Shown here: one piece after another, positions 4,199 to 19,253 of the stretch
Layout: each line of letters opens with the position of its first letter
Position numbering within the stretch: position 1 is the first letter of the stretch
Origin: a virus
Reading direction: 5' to 3' (one strand)
Length of the DNA: 22,577 nucleotides
IMG/VR virus record: IMGVR_UViG_3300030329_002997
Location: 1 to 22,577 of that record
Notes under the pieces: model-generated
The model's input: the letters and a program-made list of their open reading frames with translations, nothing else
Told to the model about the DNA's origin: nothing
Databases searched by the model: none
Made by a program: the position numbers and the translations under genes

Positions 4199-4483
4199 CT
4201 ACGGGACGACCGGCGGCGCGTGGCCGGATCCGGCCGCGACCGACTTGATAATCCAGGCCGCGGTCGCGACAGCGCCGCCGGTCGCGACCGCCCAGACCGC
4301 CCGGAGAATTCGATTCTGGACCGCCAGGGATTGTTCCTGTCTTTCTTCGATCCGGACGACCTTTTTCGCGATCCCTTCGTCGCCGTTCCCGTTCAAGATA
4401 TGGTCGTGTTCTGTTACCTTTTGGAACATAATCGCCATTTTTGCTTCATCCGGTAGATTTAGGGTTGTGTCACTTAGTCCCAT
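4199..4483 (-). CDS. Coiled-coil protein with C-terminal membrane segment (XhlA-like, lysis candidate)
   Basis: 94 aa. Residues ~30-60 are charged and helical (VVRIEERQEQSLAVQNRIL), followed by a hydrophobic segment (~63-83, VWAVATGGAVATAAWIIKS). A coiled coil followed by a C-terminal membrane anchor is the layout of XhlA-type haemolysin/holin accessory proteins. It overlaps the end of the glycosyltransferase gene by 14 bp. No endolysin gene is recognisable nearby, so the lysis role rests only on topology and position at the end of the structural operon. Confidence 0.6.
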   Translation of the reverse strand: MGLSDTTLNLPDEAKMAIMFQKVTEHDHILNGNGDEGIAKKVVRIEERQEQSLAVQNRILRAVWAVATGGAVATAAWIIKSVAAGSGHAPPVVP

Positions 4484-5638
4484 GCGGTGTCTTTCTCTTG
4501 GTTGTGTGCCATCCCGGGAGGGGTTTGAATTTCTTGACCAGCCAGGCCAGGGATCGTTCCCCTTTAAAGTCCTGGAAATGCTCGCGGATCGCGGTCCGGT
4601 TCGACTGGACCGCGTGTCCGTTCAGGTGGTAGGGAAATTTGGGCCGGAAATAATGACCAAACCAGGCGCGGCGGTCCAGGACCAGGCGCCCGCCATTAAG
4701 CCAAGTTTTTAGGGACCATTCGACCCCCGATTCCCCCCAGTGATAGAATTGCTCATCATATCCCCCATAGTTCATCCAGGTTTCCCGCCGGCAAAACCAG
4801 GCGGCGCCGATGAATGCCATAATTTCGACGACGTCCGCGGACGTCTTGGCGTCCGGGAGAACCTTGTACCGATAGTCCCGATTGATGTAATAGAAATTCC
4901 CGCCGCCCCGTTCGGCGGTCCAGGTCTCGACATCCAGGATCCGCATCGCCGGGACGACGACCGTCCCGGGATCCGCGGCGTTTTTCAGGGGGACGTCCCA
5001 GCCGGGCGAGAAGTTACAATGACCGTCGACCCGGAACAGATAGACCCCCTGGGCCAGATCCGCCAGGACGTTCGACCCGTGGCGGATCCCTTTCGGTTCG
5101 GCGTCATTGACGACACAGTGGACCCGGTCGTTGTCCATCGCCAGGACCCGTTCCTGGACTTCCAGGTGGTCGTCCCAGGCGTCCAGGAATACCCAGACGT
5201 CGATCGGGCCGATCGCCGTTTCGAATAGCGATTGGATCGTCCGTTCCAGATATTGTTCGTTCCGGGCCGGGATCAGGACGGAGACCGGGTCGGGGATCCA
5301 GCGCCCGACCGGACAGGTCGACCGGGCCAGGTGGACTTTTAAGGGTATCAGGCATCCGCATTTTTGACAGGTCCCGCGGCGGTGGTGTTCGCAGACATTA
5401 CAGATCGCCTTGCGGGTCGCGATCGTGTCCCGTTTGGCGACCGGGTTGACCTGGTGGCGGGTCATGTCACGTAGTGCCTGGACCCCCGCTTTCGCCAGGG
5501 TCCGGATCCGGGTCCCGATCGGCGGTTTCGGGCGGGGGAATTTCCGGTCGATTTCCGCTTCGTCCATCCCGGCGATCCGGGCCAGGTTCCGTTCGTGGAC
5601 GATCGCCAACAGTTTCGGGTCGTGGTTGTGCTGGTAGG

Positions 5639-5642
<4 letters not shown>
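4470..5642 (-). CDS. Family-2-like glycosyltransferase with N-terminal cysteine cluster
   Basis: 390 aa. Residues ~81-115 hold a cysteine cluster (CNVCEHHRRGTCQKCGC, then a later Cys at 110) of the kind seen as a small zinc-binding DUF6171-type domain in phage proteins. From ~119 the GT-A fold begins: PVSVLIPARNEQYLERTIQSL, then WVFLDAWDD (150-158), FRVDGHCNFSPGWD (203-216; DxD-like metal/sugar-nucleotide site) and a GYDEQFYHWGESGVEWS acceptor-side segment (~294-310). The start is GTG at 5642, overlapping the stop of the cysteine-rich gene, with GGAAG upstream. Placed directly after adhesin genes, it may glycosylate virion proteins or alter the host surface; that part is inference. Confidence 0.85.
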
Positions 5643-6232
<590 letters not shown>

Positions 6233-8323: not shown

Positions 8324-9712
8324 TTAGAAGGTCACTGTCTGGGTCTGGTCGCCCCGCATTAATTCGAGGGTCCCGTTGATCCGTTCCATGATTTCGATCT
8401 GCTTAAATTGGGCTTCGTTGTTCCGTTTCCGCTGTGCGGAGGCTTTCTTCGCCGCGTCGACGACCGGGTCCGCTTGATGTAAGAACGCGGAGGCGCCGGT
8501 TAAAAACCGCGTATTTTGAGCGTTGACCCCGATCCCAAAAGGACCCGATCCGCGGGGTCCGGTCCGACCTTTTCGACCCCCGCCGGACCCGTCCGGCGCC
8601 TGGAGATTGTCGTCCGACAGGTCCGGGATATTCCATTTCGACAGGTTCCCGAAATTAAAGACATCTCCCAAATCCATCCGTTCGAACGCAAGGTCCTGGA
8701 TCTGTTTCCCCAGGTCGAAAAATATCGCGTCCATCTTGGCGTCCAGTTCCTTCATCGCGGCGCGATGCGGGGCCCCCCCGGAATTGGGAAAGGGTTCCGG
8801 TTCCGTGTCCGTGGAATCTAGTTTGTATCTTACGGGTTCGGGGACCAGCGCACCGAATCCGAACGACTTGACCAGACTGGACGCCATCCAAGCTCGCATC
8901 TTGTGGTACTGGTGTTGGGCGGATAGGATCGCGATTTCCATAACTTTCGGTAGGTTCGCGATCGCGACTTCGACCGCTGAAAATATCATAATTAACCCGT
9001 TAGCGAAGTTTTGTAAAATCGGGGCCAGGCCGGAAACGACCATCAATTGCAGACCTTCAAACAGGCGTCCCATCCGGTCCAGGGCATCGTTCGCGTCGAC
9101 GACTTTATCCGCAAAGTCCTGGTCGATGACAATCCCCAGGGCGCGGGCTTGATCCATCATCCCCTTGATCCCGGCCGCACCCAGATTCAGGACCCGGACC
9201 ATATCCGCCCCTTCCGAATCGAACAGCTTGAAGGCACGCGCCAGCTTGATCCCGGCGTTGTCGACTTCCCCAAAGGCTTCCGCCAGGACCATAAGCTTTT
9301 CGTCCAGGTCCAGGGCGATCAGCTTTTCGGCGTCCAAGCCCAGGTCCGCGATCGTGTTCTTCGCTTCCCCCCCATCTTCGGAGGCTTCCGCCATGCGGCG
9401 CGTCATCCGCTGGACCGCCATTGTCATTTTATTGAGTTCGACCCCGGTCTGTCCGGCGACGAATCCCAGACCCGACAGGACATCCGTCGTCGTGCCAAGT
9501 TTTTCCGCCTGTTTTGCCAGTTTGTCGACTTCCCGGGTTGTTTCTTTCAGTCCCCGGATCAGGGCGCGGCCCCCCAGGAAAGCCCCGAAACCGATCGCCA
9601 GGGTCTTGACCCGGCCGGACAGGATGGCCATCTGGCGGTCTAGGCTCTTGAACAGGCGGGTCGCGTTCCGGTCTTCCCCCTTGACGATGATATCGAGTCG
9701 GCGTTTAGCCAT
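8324..9712 (-). CDS. Tape measure protein
   Basis: 462 aa. The helical N-terminal part (RNATRLFKSLDRQMAILSGR, LKETTREVDKLAKQAEKLG) fits the phage tail tape measure family, with a glycine-rich hydrophobic segment at ~35-53 and a second hydrophobic region at ~223-262 (VVSGLAPILQNFANG). A Gly/Arg-rich linker (~373-393) precedes a short helical C-terminus. At about 1.5 Å per residue the tail would be near 70 nm, a short siphovirus tail. Residues 364-372 (DLSDDNLQA) are encoded by a 28-bp sequence also found in the gene at 10686-11054. The gene follows the chaperone pair, as in most long-tailed phages. Confidence 0.85.
   Translation of the reverse strand: MAKRRLDIIVKGEDRNATRLFKSLDRQMAILSGRVKTLAIGFGAFLGGRALIRGLKETTREVDKLAKQAEKLGTTTDVLSGLGFVAGQTGVELNKMTMAVQRMTRRMAEASEDGGEAKNTIADLGLDAEKLIALDLDEKLMVLAEAFGEVDNAGIKLARAFKLFDSEGADMVRVLNLGAAGIKGMMDQARALGIVIDQDFADKVVDANDALDRMGRLFEGLQLMVVSGLAPILQNFANGLIMIFSAVEVAIANLPKVMEIAILSAQHQYHKMRAWMASSLVKSFGFGALVPEPVRYKLDSTDTEPEPFPNSGGAPHRAAMKELDAKMDAIFFDLGKQIQDLAFERMDLGDVFNFGNLSKWNIPDLSDDNLQAPDGSGGGRKGRTGPRGSGPFGIGVNAQNTRFLTGASAFLHQADPVVDAAKKASAQRKRNNEAQFKQIEIMERINGTLELMRGDQTQTVTF
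8597..8624. repeat. 28-bp exact dispersed repeat, copy in tape measure gene
   Basis: Identical to 10911-10938 over 28 bases and read in the same frame in both genes, giving DLSDDNLQA. Flanking sequence is unrelated. Confidence 0.9.
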
Positions 9713-9763: not shown

Positions 9764-9811
9764 AGCACTTCCCATAGGGAAGCACTCAGCGCTTCCCATA
9801 GGGAAACACTC
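9764..9811 (-). repeat. Two tandem 24-bp units, each a hairpin, before the tape measure gene
   Basis: Units 9788-9811 and 9764-9787 match at 22 of 24 bases. Each can fold into a 10-bp stem around TAT (core TTCCC-TAT-GGGAA). The two differences keep pairing through G-U and G-C exchange. Between the units and the tape measure start lies an AT- and purine-rich leader (9722-9763) with AGGG close to the ATG. This could be an mRNA structure or processing signal, or a paired operator near a promoter. Confidence 0.75.
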
Positions 9812-9849: not shown

Positions 9850-10517
9850 CTATTTCCGCTTCGCTTCCCGTTCGGTAATGACCTGTTTCCATCGTGTCCG
9901 TTCTCCGGCGATAAATGGCATCGCCCGACAAAACCAGGCGTCCTGGTCCAGCGATCCGCCCGGGACCGGCCAGATCCCGAATTCTTCCGCCAAGGTCGCC
10001 AATTCGATTATTTCGACCATATCCGCCCCGTATTGAGTCGGACAAGTCGACAGGTTCCAGGACCCCGATCCGCCGCAGATATCGCATCCAGGATCACCGT
10101 CGCAGTAATTACAACCGATGTCGTGACCGGTCGGGATCAGGTCTTTGCAGTCGCCGCGGCAGTCTCGACAGAGTTCCCCGAATCCGACTGCGCAGGCGAC
10201 CCGGATCCTTTTTTTTCGTCGGGATCCGGTCCGGCCAGGCCGGTCTGGTACTGGAAAAGGAATTCCATAAGGTCTTCCGCGGTCATCCAGTCCAGGGGGT
10301 CCCCCTGGCCGTTGATATGGACGACCATTTCCGCCGCCTGGATCGCCTGGTCGATCGCGTCGACCCCGACCGATCCCGCTTCTGCGGATTCCCGGACCTG
10401 GTTTAGCTTCGCGACAAAGTCCCGGAATTGGCGGACGTTCAGCCGGACCGCGTCGACCGTCAGGCCACTCTGCAGTTTGACCGGTAGAATATCGCCAGGG
10501 GCCGATCCTTTAGCCAT
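9850..10517 (-). CDS. Tail assembly chaperone, long frameshifted form (gpGT-like)
   Basis: The first 103 residues are shared with the short chaperone. A -1 slip on A AAA AAA (10215-10209) enters a frame open from 10209 to the stop at 9850, adding 119 residues for a 222-aa product. The extension starts RIRVACAVGFGELCRDCRGD and has nine cysteines in its first ~56 residues (CRDCRGDC, CNYC, CDIC, and single ones), suggesting zinc binding. Its end is helical and basic (RTRWKQVITEREAKRK). G/GT chaperone pairs made by frameshifting just upstream of the tape measure gene are known from lambda and relatives. They coat the tape measure during tail assembly. The cysteine-rich T part is unusual to me. 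Confidence 0.8.
10137..10517 (-). CDS. Tail assembly chaperone, short form (gpG-like)
   Basis: 126 aa, mostly helical and acidic towards the C-terminus (DAIDQAIQAAEMVVHINGQG, LDWMTAEDLMEFLFQYQTG). The size, place between the tail tube and tape measure genes, and the slippery site near its end fit the tail chaperone G family. The start ATG 10517 overlaps the stop of the preceding 54-aa gene. Residues ~21-43 are encoded by the 74-bp segment that occurs rearranged at 118-191. Confidence 0.8.
   Translation of the reverse strand: MAKGSAPGDILPVKLQSGLTVDAVRLNVRQFRDFVAKLNQVRESAEAGSVGVDAIDQAIQAAEMVVHINGQGDPLDWMTAEDLMEFLFQYQTGLAGPDPDEKKGSGSPAQSDSGNSVETAAATAKT
10150..10215 (-). promoter_or_regulatory. 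Programmed -1 frameshift signal
   Basis: Slippery heptamer A AAA AAA in frame GAA AAA AAA GGA (10215-10209), then an 8-nt spacer, then a two-part hairpin. The lower stem GTCGCC/GGCGAC is at 10200-10195 and 10155-10150. The upper stem GCAGTC/GACTGC is at 10191-10186 and 10164-10159. Shift site, spacing and structure match the classical -1 frameshift layout. Confidence 0.85.
10385..10458. repeat. 74-bp segment copied elsewhere (copy B, in chaperone gene)
   Basis: The counterpart of 118-191. Block order here is 16 bp, 10 bp (10401-10410), 25 bp (10411-10435), 23 bp. It lies in frame within the chaperone gene, where the encoded residues (VDAVRLNVRQF onward) look normal, so this is probably the original. 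Confidence 0.93.
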
Positions 10518-10674
10518 TGGTCTTTCCCTTCCCCCCGGCCGCTTTCAGGTACTGTTCCCGGGTCTCCTGGGAGAGTTGCGACCAGAGGAAAGCCAGTTCC
10601 CCATCGGTCGCGTCCGCCATCGACGGACGGGCTTTCAAAAGTGCCTTTTTGTTTTTCTCGTCAAATTTTGCCAT
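10510..10674 (-). CDS. Hypothetical 54-aa protein upstream of the chaperone
   Basis: Starts MAKFDEKNKKALLKARPSMA and contains GELAFLWSQLSQETREQYLK before a Gly/Lys-rich end. It is small and helical. A good ribosome site (AAGGAAA) lies before ATG 10674. Its last bases overlap the chaperone start, so translation is likely coupled. It is probably a tail assembly accessory protein, but no family is recognised. Confidence 0.65.
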   Translation of the reverse strand: MAKFDEKNKKALLKARPSMADATDGELAFLWSQLSQETREQYLKAAGGKGKTNG

Positions 10675-11135: not shown

Positions 11136-12065
11136 TCAGGTCAGGGTCAGTGACCATTCGTCATCGCCGCTGGTGGCGACGCATTGGGCGGTGACGTCCA
11201 GGGTTTGAATCCCGTCCCGGTCCGCCTGGGACGGGTCCCGGAATTGCAGTTTCGTCGATGCGAAAGTCGCCGTGTCGGTCCCGTTCGTGATCGACAGGGA
11301 TAGATTCGCGGTGGTCCCGGCGAGCCATTTCCCATAGAAATCGTAGCCGGCGACCTTGTCGAATTCGGGGTCCAGGGTCCAGGCCGGGTCCCGGCCGGTG
11401 ATCAGGGCGTGGATCGATCCCCCCTGGTTCGCGATATCGGGCCGCAGGATCACGTTGTTCCCCAGGTCGAAAGACCAATTCGCGACCTTGATTGTCTCCG
11501 AATCGATCGTGAAAGCGCCGGCCGCGGCGTTCGTTCGCATCGGGACGACCGCGGTGAATGTCGGGGTCGGCAGCGCGGTATCGACGGGGGGTTGCCAGAC
11601 CCCGGTCAAGGTGAAATCGATCAGGACCCGGCCGCCGGCGCCGTTGCGAAAGACCGCGTTGCCCATCGCCCCGCGTAGGCGTTTCTGGACCCCGTCTTCG
11701 AATACGTCGACGGTCACTGTCTCCATCGTGCCAGGGACCGACGTCGGGGTGTAGACCTGGGTCGCCTGGGCGACCCCGCAAGCTTTTAACAGCTTGACCA
11801 GGACCGTATTCAGGGCCGCGGAATCGGTCCCCTTGAGTTCGGCGGTGAAGGAACAGGACCCCGCCAGGATCCCGTCGACGATCCCCGGGGCGGTGTGACC
11901 CAGGAATCCCCCGCCGCCTTTCCGTTCGGCGAACGTGGACTCGACGTTGGTCTGGAGATCGAATACCAGGAGGTAGTCGGTCGTCGTGACCGCGGTCCCC
12001 TTGGTCGATTCGGTCGCGATCCGGAGTATTCTTTTTCTTGCGAGTAATGGGGCCGAAAGTGCCAT
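11136..12065 (-). CDS. Major tail tube protein
   Basis: 309 aa. It opens ARKRILRIATESTKGTAVTT and continues with beta-strand-rich segments (GSCSFTAELKG, VLIDFTLTGVW, LSLSITNGTDTATF, VTAQCVATSGDDEWSLTLT), the pattern of phage tail tube proteins. The gene order tail completion, terminator, tube, chaperone, tape measure matches lambda-like tails. AAGGGA precedes the ATG. The size is typical for a tube protein with an added domain. It assembles as rings around the tape measure. Confidence 0.8.
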   Translation of the reverse strand: MALSAPLLARKRILRIATESTKGTAVTTTDYLLVFDLQTNVESTFAERKGGGGFLGHTAPGIVDGILAGSCSFTAELKGTDSAALNTVLVKLLKACGVAQATQVYTPTSVPGTMETVTVDVFEDGVQKRLRGAMGNAVFRNGAGGRVLIDFTLTGVWQPPVDTALPTPTFTAVVPMRTNAAAGAFTIDSETIKVANWSFDLGNNVILRPDIANQGGSIHALITGRDPAWTLDPEFDKVAGYDFYGKWLAGTTANLSLSITNGTDTATFASTKLQFRDPSQADRDGIQTLDVTAQCVATSGDDEWSLTLT

Positions 12066-13244: not shown

Positions 13245-14201
13245 TTACATGACCGCGAATTCGACGAATCCGTCGTCCTGGTACTGGTGGAATTTCAATA
13301 ATCGCCGCTGGACGGGTCCGCCCATCCGGGCCGGGACATCAATCGAATCCCCGCCGGCGTCCGCCTGTTGCGGGGTGATCCCGATCGTCGCGTCGTTCGC
13401 GACGGTGATCGTCATCGACGTCCCGAAACCAGACGGTCCCGCCTGGGCCGGCGGGTCCCGGTCGACGATCGCCTTGATCGATCGGGCCGATCCGGACGCG
13501 GGGACGTATTGGATAACCTCCCCGAATTCGTCCAGGAAAACCGATTGTTCCTGGATCATTCGCCTGGAGGTCTGGTTGTCGACCCAGGCTATCGTCGGGG
13601 GGTTGAATGCGTTATTCCAGAATCCCTGTCCGTTCAGGATCCGGAGTTCGTCTATATAGGCGTCGCCGGCGTAATCGTCGGTGGGTCGGATAATCAGGTC
13701 CGCGGCGAAATTCGGGACGGTGTAAGACTTGCTGGCCGCGGTCGCCCCGACGACCCCGTCGACCCAGATCTTCCAGTCCGTCCCGATCCGGGTCGCGGCG
13801 ATATGGGTCCAGGTGTTCGCCGCGGGAATAGTCGTCGATTGTGCGGTAATCTGGGTTACGGCCGATTCCCGAACTAGGAATCCAACGACCCCAGAATTCC
13901 CGTATATGAACCAATAATTGTTGATGTCGACGTATTGACCCGCCAGCATAAGATTCGGCATCGACGCGCCGCGGCGATACCAGAAATCGATCGTGAAATC
14001 ATTGTCCCCGAAATGCCAGTCCGCCGAATCGGGGACCGTGACGATATCCGCTTCGGCGGTCCCTTTCAGGGAGGCGTCCCCGAATTTTGCCTGGTCTTCC
14101 GATATCGCCGCCGATCCCGACGCGGTCATTGTCTGTTCGTTCCCCGAATCGTCCTGGACGTCCGAATCGAAATGACATAATAACTTCTGAAATGTTTCCA
14201 T
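13245..14201 (-). CDS. LamG-like lectin domain fused to a head-tail joining-like domain
   Basis: 318 aa. Residues ~1-195 form a concanavalin-A/LamG-type jelly roll (SLKGTAEADIVTVPDSADWH, FTIDFWYRR, TWTHIAATR, WKIWVDG, AYIDELRILNG). From ~215 the protein looks like a separate small unit: EFGEVIQYVPASGSARSIKA, TITVANDATIG, SIDVPARMGGPVQRRLLKFH. This resembles short head-tail joining/adaptor proteins usually encoded here. An ATG (codon 215) marks the border, but only a weak ribosome site precedes it. The fusion would place a carbohydrate-binding domain at the neck or head surface. The lectin part is well supported; the second half is supported mainly by position. Confidence 0.7.
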   Translation of the reverse strand: METFQKLLCHFDSDVQDDSGNEQTMTASGSAAISEDQAKFGDASLKGTAEADIVTVPDSADWHFGDNDFTIDFWYRRGASMPNLMLAGQYVDINNYWFIYGNSGVVGFLVRESAVTQITAQSTTIPAANTWTHIAATRIGTDWKIWVDGVVGATAASKSYTVPNFAADLIIRPTDDYAGDAYIDELRILNGQGFWNNAFNPPTIAWVDNQTSRRMIQEQSVFLDEFGEVIQYVPASGSARSIKAIVDRDPPAQAGPSGFGTSMTITVANDATIGITPQQADAGGDSIDVPARMGGPVQRRLLKFHQYQDDGFVEFAVM

Positions 14202-15527: not shown

Positions 15528-16994
15528 CTAGGCGGTGTTCTTTTGCAGGGTCCGGTAGTCCATCGGGGCCACACCAACGTCGACGTAGACCCGATAGGTG
15601 ATCCCAAGGGTGTTCGGATCCATGTCGAACTGTTCGACGACCGGGTTCTCTTGGCCGTTCAGAAATGCGACTTCCAGGGTGTCGTGTTGCGACGGGTCGC
15701 CGGTGACGTACCAGGTCGTAGTCGAATTCCCGGTAAAGTTCGAATTCTCGAGACGCGGTTCGACGATCGGGGTCATCGTCCCGCGGAGAACATTCGAAGC
15801 GGGGACCGTGGAATTGGTCGACCCGGTGATGATCAGGAGGTCCGATTCCAGCAGGGACCGGGCGGTGTTCTCCAGGTTCGGCGGGACCAGCAGGCCGAAC
15901 GGGGAAACGTCGATCGGGTCCCCGTCCAGGTCGGTCTGGTTCCGGAATCCCTGGATCGCCGCGGCGAGAGTGTCTTTAGTCAGGGCGGCGGACGTATTTA
16001 AATTGCTGTGGGAGGCGTTGAACAGGGCGATCCCGTCCGACATATTCCCATTCGCCATCAGGGACGTATAGACTAGGTCACTGATTTTGGTCGCCGCTTT
16101 GCGGCCGAATGCGGCCGGGGTCCGGACTAGGGCGTCAATATTATCGTTTACAATATCGTTACGGGAGACCGCGAACAGTTTCCCGCGGGTCTTGGCCGTG
16201 ATGGTCTCGTATTCTTCTTGAGCAGATCCGTGGGTGAAGGTCCCCTTGTTTTCGACCGTTTCCAGGTCGCCCATATCGGTTACGCGGACGCGCGTGTGGG
16301 CTTTGAAATCGGCGACCGACCCGATGGAACACCAATTCCGCCAGGTGGCCGGGGCGTTCTGGTAGGCCATCAGCGCCGTCACGTTGGCCGTATTGGACAG
16401 CGCCTGGGGGAGCGTGTAGGTCGAAAATGCGGCGCGGATCATGTCGCGTTTATTACGCGGGACGACCTTCCCTTCGAATTGCAGGGACGCGCGGCAGACA
16501 TCTAGGAGGGTCAATTCCTGGAATTCTTCCAGGGCGACATTTACGTCCTGGTCGGAGTGCCGGCTGATTAGGGTCTTTTCGGGGACCCGGGCGCGACTAC
16601 AAAGCGCAATTTCCAGGTGACGGGCATTTACCGACCGGTTGCCGGCGATCACATTCGGGGCGCCGATTTCGACCCGGTTCGCCTGGATCGATTCCAGAAA
16701 TAACTGTCGGGCTTGGTCGACGTTCAGGCCGGTCGATATCGCCCGTTCGACGATATCCGCGGGAACCAGGTTCCCGGCGTTCAGGTCGCGGATCTGTTCG
16801 ACCCGGTTCTTTTCCGCGGCGATTCCTTCCGCTTTCGCCCGTTCCAGGGCGTCCGGTCCGGGGGTCGGGTCCGCCGCGGGGGTCGGTTCGGCGGCGGTGC
16901 GTTGATCCAGAAATACCTGGATCACGTTGTCGTCCAGGTCTTCGGGTGAGAGTCCCAGGGACCGGACATAGTCCAGTTGTTCTTTTGTAAACAT
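15528..16994 (-). CDS. Internal-start scaffold-capsid product (488 aa)
   Basis: Inside the fusion gene, codon 202 is an ATG (16994-16992) preceded by AAAAAGGAAAGAACT, a near-ideal ribosome site 7 nt away, at the border between protease and scaffold parts. The product starts MFTKEQLDYVRSLGLSPEDL. It would give capsid subunits without protease in excess over the fusion, as in phages that nest scaffold and capsid genes. The site is visible; its use is inferred. Confidence 0.6.
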   Translation of the reverse strand: MFTKEQLDYVRSLGLSPEDLDDNVIQVFLDQRTAAEPTPAADPTPGPDALERAKAEGIAAEKNRVEQIRDLNAGNLVPADIVERAISTGLNVDQARQLFLESIQANRVEIGAPNVIAGNRSVNARHLEIALCSRARVPEKTLISRHSDQDVNVALEEFQELTLLDVCRASLQFEGKVVPRNKRDMIRAAFSTYTLPQALSNTANVTALMAYQNAPATWRNWCSIGSVADFKAHTRVRVTDMGDLETVENKGTFTHGSAQEEYETITAKTRGKLFAVSRNDIVNDNIDALVRTPAAFGRKAATKISDLVYTSLMANGNMSDGIALFNASHSNLNTSAALTKDTLAAAIQGFRNQTDLDGDPIDVSPFGLLVPPNLENTARSLLESDLLIITGSTNSTVPASNVLRGTMTPIVEPRLENSNFTGNSTTTWYVTGDPSQHDTLEVAFLNGQENPVVEQFDMDPNTLGITYRVYVDVGVAPMDYRTLQKNTA

Positions 16995-17597
16995 AGTTCT
17001 TTCCTTTTTGCTTTCGTCAAGGGTTCGCATTTTCGCCGCCTGGTCCGCCCCGTGTGGGCATATACAATTGTGGACCAGTTCCCATTCGGTCGAGAGTTTC
17101 AGGGCGCGGTCGCCGTTGTTCTGGTATGTTTTGCCCCGGACCTTTCGGGATTTCCCGGGGTCGATGAAAATGGATTTTCGGTCGTTCACGCGGTAGCGGA
17201 CGGAATTGTCGGTGACATATCCCCCGGAAACGAGTTCCCAGGCGTCCCGGGCCGATTCGGTGTCCGCGAAATAGTTCCAGGCCAGGATCCGCCCTTGGGC
17301 GTCGACGGAGAATTCCCGGGAGGACCCTAATACGTCCTGAACCGATCCGACACGGTGGGTATCGACCAGGGGGACCTGGTCCGGCAGTTGGACCCCGTCC
17401 GACAATAGGATTTCGTCGACGTAGTCCATCCGGTCCCAATCAAACATAAGGACCGGGGTTTCGGTCGCGACGACCGCCTGGACTTTGCGCTGGTCCGCGT
17501 TTGCCGTTTTGGGGACGACGGTCGCGGCGCGTTCATAGGATCCGTCAAGCGGCGGTTGTTGCGTTTTCTGGGCTGTCGTCGTTTTCTTCCGTGTCAT
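15528..17597 (-). CDS. Prohead protease-major capsid protein fusion
   Basis: 689 aa. Residues ~35-185 resemble the HK97-type prohead protease, with the likely catalytic His in VDTHRVGSVQDVL (H81) and Ser in TDNSVRYRV (S132). Residues ~203-305 are acidic and helical with a Pro/Ala/Thr-rich linker, consistent with a scaffolding (delta) region. From ~310 the major capsid domain follows, with motifs such as EKTLISRHSDQDVNVALEEF, GKLFAVSRNDIVNDN and a C-terminal ITYRVYVDVGVAPMDYRTL. Protease-capsid fusions are known in phages. The start ATG 17597 has AAGGA upstream and overlaps the portal gene by 53 bp. Confidence 0.85.
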   Translation of the reverse strand: MTRKKTTTAQKTQQPPLDGSYERAATVVPKTANADQRKVQAVVATETPVLMFDWDRMDYVDEILLSDGVQLPDQVPLVDTHRVGSVQDVLGSSREFSVDAQGRILAWNYFADTESARDAWELVSGGYVTDNSVRYRVNDRKSIFIDPGKSRKVRGKTYQNNGDRALKLSTEWELVHNCICPHGADQAAKMRTLDESKKERTMFTKEQLDYVRSLGLSPEDLDDNVIQVFLDQRTAAEPTPAADPTPGPDALERAKAEGIAAEKNRVEQIRDLNAGNLVPADIVERAISTGLNVDQARQLFLESIQANRVEIGAPNVIAGNRSVNARHLEIALCSRARVPEKTLISRHSDQDVNVALEEFQELTLLDVCRASLQFEGKVVPRNKRDMIRAAFSTYTLPQALSNTANVTALMAYQNAPATWRNWCSIGSVADFKAHTRVRVTDMGDLETVENKGTFTHGSAQEEYETITAKTRGKLFAVSRNDIVNDNIDALVRTPAAFGRKAATKISDLVYTSLMANGNMSDGIALFNASHSNLNTSAALTKDTLAAAIQGFRNQTDLDGDPIDVSPFGLLVPPNLENTARSLLESDLLIITGSTNSTVPASNVLRGTMTPIVEPRLENSNFTGNSTTTWYVTGDPSQHDTLEVAFLNGQENPVVEQFDMDPNTLGITYRVYVDVGVAPMDYRTLQKNTA

Positions 17598-19038: not shown

Positions 19039-19253
19039 AATCCCCCCCCCTTCTGGATCCGGTGTTGTTGGATCGGGACGACCGCCCCGGTCGACGCGAC
19101 CTTTTTTTCGAATCTGGCCAGCAGGGATTCCAGGCCGGCCAGGTCATATTCGGAGGATCGGCCGTTGATCGTCATCCTGGTCAGACCGCCGCGCTGGGCG
19201 ATTCTAGATATGGCGGTCTGGATATCGGTCAGGATTTCCGCGTCGGTTGCCAT
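19035..19253 (-). CDS. gpW-like head-tail connector
   Basis: 72 aa: ATDAEILTDIQTAISRIAQR, then TRMTINGRSSEYDLAGLESLLARFE and a short basic tail. A helix, a short beta hairpin (MTINGRSSEYD) and a second helix, of this length and just upstream of the portal gene, are the hallmarks of the gpW family that seals the head after packaging. No strong ribosome site precedes ATG 19253; the stop overlaps the portal start. Confidence 0.85.
   Translation of the reverse strand: MATDAEILTDIQTAISRIAQRGGLTRMTINGRSSEYDLAGLESLLARFEKKVASTGAVVPIQQHRIQKGGGL

Follow-up and report, generated by a model that had tools for sequence, protein, structure and literature searches.

The stretch of viral DNA analysed here (22,577 nt, hereafter the window) contains on its minus strand a gene coding for a putative tail assembly chaperone, G, which is followed in the -1 frame by a cysteine-rich extension, T (Table 1). 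The gene is placed between proteins that match phrog_290 and phrog_9483, as is customary for G/GT genes, and several relatives of the upstream protein carry the annotation "tail tube protein"; the G/GT position proposed by an earlier sequence-only reading is thus borne out by the tail tube upstream and the tape measure downstream. A G/GT frameshift in this position is textbook knowledge for the tail genes of lambda-like phages. The G product, for which an alignment of 18 rows across loci was obtained, was modelled with AF2 (pLDDT 81) and shows a weak similarity to 2ob9, the tail chaperone of HK97 (Z 4.4, rmsd 4.7, 81 aligned), that is a hint only, because unrelated rows outscore it (a PARP catalytic fragment reaches Z 6.0), and the assignment of G rests, therefore, on its gene place and on the slip. 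Foldseek with the same model gave no match at E 0.001, neither window G nor window T matches any Pfam family at E up to 1, and in PHROGs G is unmatched and T has only a chance-level match (E 0.2).

Table 1. Positions of the chaperone gene, its internal features and its neighbours in the window.
Feature	Position	Strand	Details
Tail tube protein, upstream	11136..12065	minus	phrog_290, E 1.4e-13; probable partner of T
G ORF, tail assembly chaperone-like zero-frame product	10517-10137	minus	126 aa; flanked by the tail tube and tape measure genes
Slippery heptamer A AAA AAA, -1 phase	10215-10209	minus	Within A8 run 10216-10209; G codons GAC GAA AAA AAA GGA
Two-part stem-loop, possible frameshift stimulator	10150..10200	minus	8-nt spacer 10208-10201
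T part, -1 frame	10215 to stop 9850-9852	minus	121 codons including two Lys codons, 119 after the slip; 10 Cys
Putative site A, first three Cys	C16 10170-10168, C19 10161-10159, C23 10149-10147	minus	Cys in 62, 63 and 61 of 64 rows
Putative site B knuckle, C35-x2-C38-x5-C44-x2-C47	10075..10113	minus	Full in 59/64, wholly absent in 5/64, never partial
Putative site A, fourth Cys, C58 of the conserved CP	10042..10044	minus	Cys in 63/64 rows
GGxxDQ motif (G86, G87, D90, Q91), start of long C-terminal helix	9943..9960	minus	64-row alignment
Tape measure protein, downstream	8324..9712	minus	phrog_9483 (tail length tape measure), E 6e-41; probable partner of G

Other features of the window were recorded along the way. 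A 54-aa ORF (10511-10674, minus) overlaps the start of G, and similar small ORFs were seen by eye before G in two relatives (L002, 4947-5162; L041, 517-909). Two copies of a palindrome with a TTCCCATAGGGAA-like core are located at 9768-9805, after the stop of T and before the tape measure gene begins. Farther away, a 689-aa ORF (15528-17597, minus) codes for an apparently fused protease and major capsid protein (phrog_4523, 4e-116), a Laminin_G_3 protein (PF13385, 2e-12; 13245-14201, minus) lies in the head-to-tail region, and a family 2 glycosyltransferase (PF00535, 4e-9; 4470-5642, minus) has a cysteine-rich DUF6171-like stretch in front of it.

The extension is open over the 119 codons after the slip that had been claimed for it (121 counted from the heptamer). 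In a GC-rich genome such as this one, long ORFs arise by chance in large numbers in all six frames, so that the length of the open frame carries no weight, and T is taken to be a real protein because of its homology to L002, its conserved slip site and cysteines, and its low dN/dS. Scans with single proteins gave zero relatives for window T and for the tape measure and one for the tail tube, L002, which opened the way to the family; its T part (BLASTP 2e-11 to window T) is found at the equivalent position and follows an A9 run. Searches with T alignments enlarged the set from four loci to 24 and then, through a scan of IMG/VR, to 87 relatives, 80 of which were listed. In seven close homologue pairs the -1 frame has dN/dS values of 0.025-0.207, compared with 1.2-5.5 in the other two frames, showing that the T frame is under selection as a protein. 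T relatives in bacterial genomes amount to two contigs and three further Planctomycetota genomes (L040-L042), which, the seed genome apart, were the true matches in a search of 392 genomes; a search of 385 genomes gave four matches, of which the sole true member was the own genome of an already known locus (L036) and the others were L059, L060 and L061 (one strand read).

The heptamer announced by the sequence-only reading is present in the right phase. When the 90 rows (88 contigs) of the family were reduced to 61 distinct T proteins, 60 were found to have an in-phase X XXY YYZ heptamer at the G/T junction (AAAAAAA in 50, AAAAAAC in 6, and AAAAAAG, GGGAAAC, GGGAAAA and AAATTTT in one each), against a background in the upstream G ORFs of 19 in 10,715 codon positions. 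Homologues with no slip site, or with stops in the extension, had been named as the counter-evidence to look for, and with 60 of 61 distinct homologues keeping the heptamer the proposed frameshift stood. The sole exception is L064, in which an A10 run (L064 1490-1515) sets T in +1 relative to G; this could be a one-base change in homopolymer length or real use of another slip. A second in-phase heptamer of the window (A AAA AAG, 19101-19107, minus), inside a 72-aa ORF between terminase and portal, is probably due to chance.

Three other origins of the frame change were considered. RNA polymerase could slip on the A8-A9 run and add an A, bringing T into frame at the transcript level, as might be suspected from the runs of 8-9 A in most of the members whose junction was read out and from the A10 run of L064; however, in 10 of the 61 distinct members the heptamer is not AAAAAAA, and three of these heptamers (GGGAAAC, GGGAAAA and AAATTTT) come with no long A run; the A run of L036 and L042 is only six long, and a stable RNA is found at frameshift spacing in one clade (see below). 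Tandem tRNA slippage by -1 follows the rule X XXY YYZ, with which the non-A7 heptamers agree, and polymerase slippage is considered improbable. T could also be made separately from a start codon of its own, and some homologues have an ATG or TTG between the heptamer and the first site-A cysteine, but there is no ATG, GTG or TTG from the opening of the T frame to C16 in the window, L018, L026, L028, L029, L035, L002, L036 and L037, making separate initiation unlikely in the window and a very poor explanation in general. Finally, sequencing errors are common at homopolymer runs and the window gene might be broken or mis-assembled, but 60 of the 61 distinct homologues, which come from many samples, show the same frame relation, and remote versions exist in two isolate phages. 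The homologues refute an artefact at the family level, so that it is scarcely credible, and any residual doubt concerns the A count of the window record alone. The reading preferred here is, then, a ribosomal -1 slip on the heptamer.

Downstream of the heptamer, the 8-nt spacer and the two-part stem described by the sequence-only reading are both present, but the stability of the stem (-25.4 kcal/mol) is not above chance in the window (z -0.70, with 44 of 200 shuffles as good); for the 60 nt past the heptamer, z was -1.45 and -1.6 in two runs. The same 60 nt in 40 representatives of the family have a mean z of -1.15, with 11 of the 40 below -2; the corresponding means are 0.04 (1 below -2) for a control stretch some 180 nt farther downstream and -0.38 (4 below -2) for one upstream. 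In one clade the stem, at frameshift spacing, goes far past chance, with z down to -6.3. A conserved RNA register at the exact window positions fails, since the arms shift between members, RNAalifold on 11 sequences recovers part of the stem only, and Rfam gave no match in the window. From the z values of the 40 representatives and the shifting register, a structured stimulator is likely for some members of the family and no more than plausible for the window.

Window T contains ten cysteines (C8, C16, C19, C23, C35, C38, C44, C47, C58 and C96), one more than the nine originally counted, and the CxxC-type pairs noted among them are kept in the family, with Cys in 59-63 of the 64 rows per column of an alignment that comprises 61 distinct T parts, the window and two isolate phages. 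Eight of them fall into two quartets, named here site A (C16, C19, C23, C58) and site B (C35, C38, C44, C47). Both quartets are complete in 55 rows, five rows have four site-A and no site-B cysteines, three have three and four, and one has none and four. The five lacking site B with site A complete are Alteromonas phage P24, Microcystis phage Mae-JY22, L120, L133 and L037, and L041 is the reverse case, site A being wholly missing and site B complete. In the members without site B a short linker stands in its place, which we take to form a simple hairpin. A tree from which the site-B region was left out shows five changes in the state of site B, although the number of events may be as low as two or three, since support for the tree is weak (starred: 3 of its 40 inner branches). 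The motif GGxxDQ is nearly invariant in the same 64 rows (Q91 and one G 100%, the other G 98%, D 97%).

Since the eight cysteines move as all-or-nothing quartets, the simplest reading of the alignment is that T has two separate Cys4 metal sites, B being an optional knuckle enclosed by A along the sequence and the metal being predicted. The structure prediction that had been proposed as a check on the extension bears this out in part: in the AF2 model (pLDDT 84, pTM 0.75), which places no metals, short strands (31-34 and 52-55) directly flank site B and long helices follow C58, one of them spanning residues 89-120, but no solved structure matches in fold searches (best E 1.8, best Z 3.1), a null result that speaks neither for nor against a new fold. 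Elsewhere in the window, a 197-aa ORF (5639-6232, minus) has 17 Cys (8.6%) and long TP repeats, with no Pfam match at E 0.01; the Cys content of the other listed ORFs is 0-2.9%.

Among PDB sequences the T profile is matched best by an enzyme, bacterial PheRS alpha, in its Cys4 hairpin (4p71, residues 256-285, E 0.003); the shared pattern, IxCxxCxGxGCxxCxxxGW over 30 residues, is confined to site B, and it is regarded as a likeness in sequence pattern and not as a claim of common origin. Many Planctomycetota PheRS alpha genes (L043-L058) have a CPFCxGxGCxxC hairpin much like site B. Among 33 Planctomycetota genome matches, 29 span only profile positions 32-73; sixteen of the 29 were retrieved (L043-L058), and 15 of the sixteen carry what we take to be the PheRS alpha motif. 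An origin of site B from a DnaJ-like protein, considered on the basis of CxxCxGxG and of weak PDB matches to BSD2, was dropped, two of 18 scanned loci having two CxxCxGxG. Cys4 motifs alone do not tell which metal is bound, and the quartets could instead hold an iron-sulfur cluster or form disulfides as a redox switch; against this, CPxCxGxGCxxC with its flanking strands resembles Cys4 hairpin knuckles (the weak match to 4p71 quoted above), and tail chaperones work in the reducing cytoplasm. We judge a cluster or a redox switch to be improbable and structural zinc the best candidate.

The T domain is absent from Pfam, PHROGs and NCBIfam as a covered family. With 15 members as queries, three Pfam families match one member each (best E 0.0049, in a table that prints no cut-offs), NCBIfam behaves likewise (best E 0.0034), and the best PHROGs match, phrog_25876, has no function and is found in three of the 15 (E 0.001); the curated zinc-finger models of Pfam do not match window T at E up to 1. 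A tblastn search of 50,697 phage records with six T queries returned nothing at E up to 1. Among isolate phages the T domain was found only in two remote, site-A-only versions, those of P24 and Mae-JY22 (hhalign probability to the family of 91 and 89%), which have an A AAA AAC slip site, all four site-A cysteines and no site-B cysteine, and which match only themselves when used as tblastn queries. In P24 the T part is unannotated, and in Mae-JY22 only its second part is annotated, as a separate hypothetical protein.

A different T is found behind related tubes. The tail tubes of Synechococcus phages S-CBS1 and S-LBS1, Rhodobacter phage RC1, Thiobacimonas phage P1, P24 and Mae-JY22 are related to that of the window (25-30% identity), and in all six phages T stands behind an in-phase heptamer. 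In the first four, T occupies the same -1 place, after AAAAAAC or GGGAAAC, and matches DUF1799 (PF08809; E 8e-11 to 3e-14), a family that matches none of 15 members of the window family nor window T itself; hhalign between the window-family T and the S-CBS1 T gives a probability of 0.1%. The frameshift arrangement is thus of a known kind, and related tubes are followed by two or more types of T domain that seem to be unrelated. The window family has in common with lambda gpG/gpGT a gene between tail tube and tape measure, a heptamer near the end of G and T in the -1 frame, and differs from it in the cysteine-rich T with two probable metal sites and in the helical part with GGxxDQ; to our knowledge the lambda T does not have this cysteine-rich, two-metal-site character. 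The sequence-only reading knew of no metal-binding-looking T among the classical examples, and the openly accessible literature searched, including passages of PMC5009743, PMC2628397, PMC5313236, PMC7230728, PMC7911831 and PMC3706429, contains no report of one. The authors of a study on HF1-like haloviruses, which are rich in CxxC proteins, state that the assembly and morphogenesis region contains none of these (PMC7230728). The G/GT frameshift is, then, classical, and the metal-binding T domain, with a metal predicted from its cysteines, is undescribed as far as searched.

Taken together, the gene is best explained as a G/GT chaperone gene with a two-centre Cys4 metal-binding (most likely zinc) T domain, a reading to which we give a probability of roughly 0.78 and in which the metal, the use of the slip and the tube binding are inferred. 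The frameshifted, cysteine-rich T proposed by the sequence-only reading is supported overall, with metal binding and the fusion as predictions. Most ribosomes would make G, and in a minority a -1 slip on A AAA AAA would lead to GT, whose T part would consist of the two-centre Cys4 domain followed by the helical part with GGxxDQ. Site A would be the core of the domain, joining the beginning of T with the CP motif that precedes the helices, and site B an optional knuckle at the tip of a beta-hairpin; zinc would stand in for a hydrophobic core, holding this small domain together, and site B may be an add-on that touches the client. In lambda, the tape measure protein is the binding partner of G and GT and the major tail protein that of T, and the ratio of G to GT is important for assembly (PMC5009743). 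By analogy, G would coat the tape measure protein and the T part would bring tail tube subunits to it; the use of the slip, zinc as the metal, this lambda-like division of labour and tube binding are all things that we infer. A wider proposal is more tentative and, in our opinion, rather doubtful as a whole: T might be a new, modular metal-binding chaperone domain in which site A provides the fold and site B a removable zinc knuckle gripping unassembled tube subunits, so that assembly would be zinc-dependent and the slip would meter the zinc module, with T and DUF1799 modules being exchanged behind related tubes.

As far as we know, no part of tail length control is understood as poorly as the T half of the chaperones, and the eight diagnostic cysteines give a handle on it, through its metal content, through tests of single residues and through a sequence mark that is easy to recognise. 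As the extension can go unannotated, as in P24, the following recipe would help annotators to find it: an in-phase heptamer between tube and tape measure, followed by CP and GGxxDQ. The phages with this T are a little-known environmental family in which a slip appears to add a cysteine-rich, probably zinc-binding domain to the chaperone, and quite different T domains serve related tail tubes.
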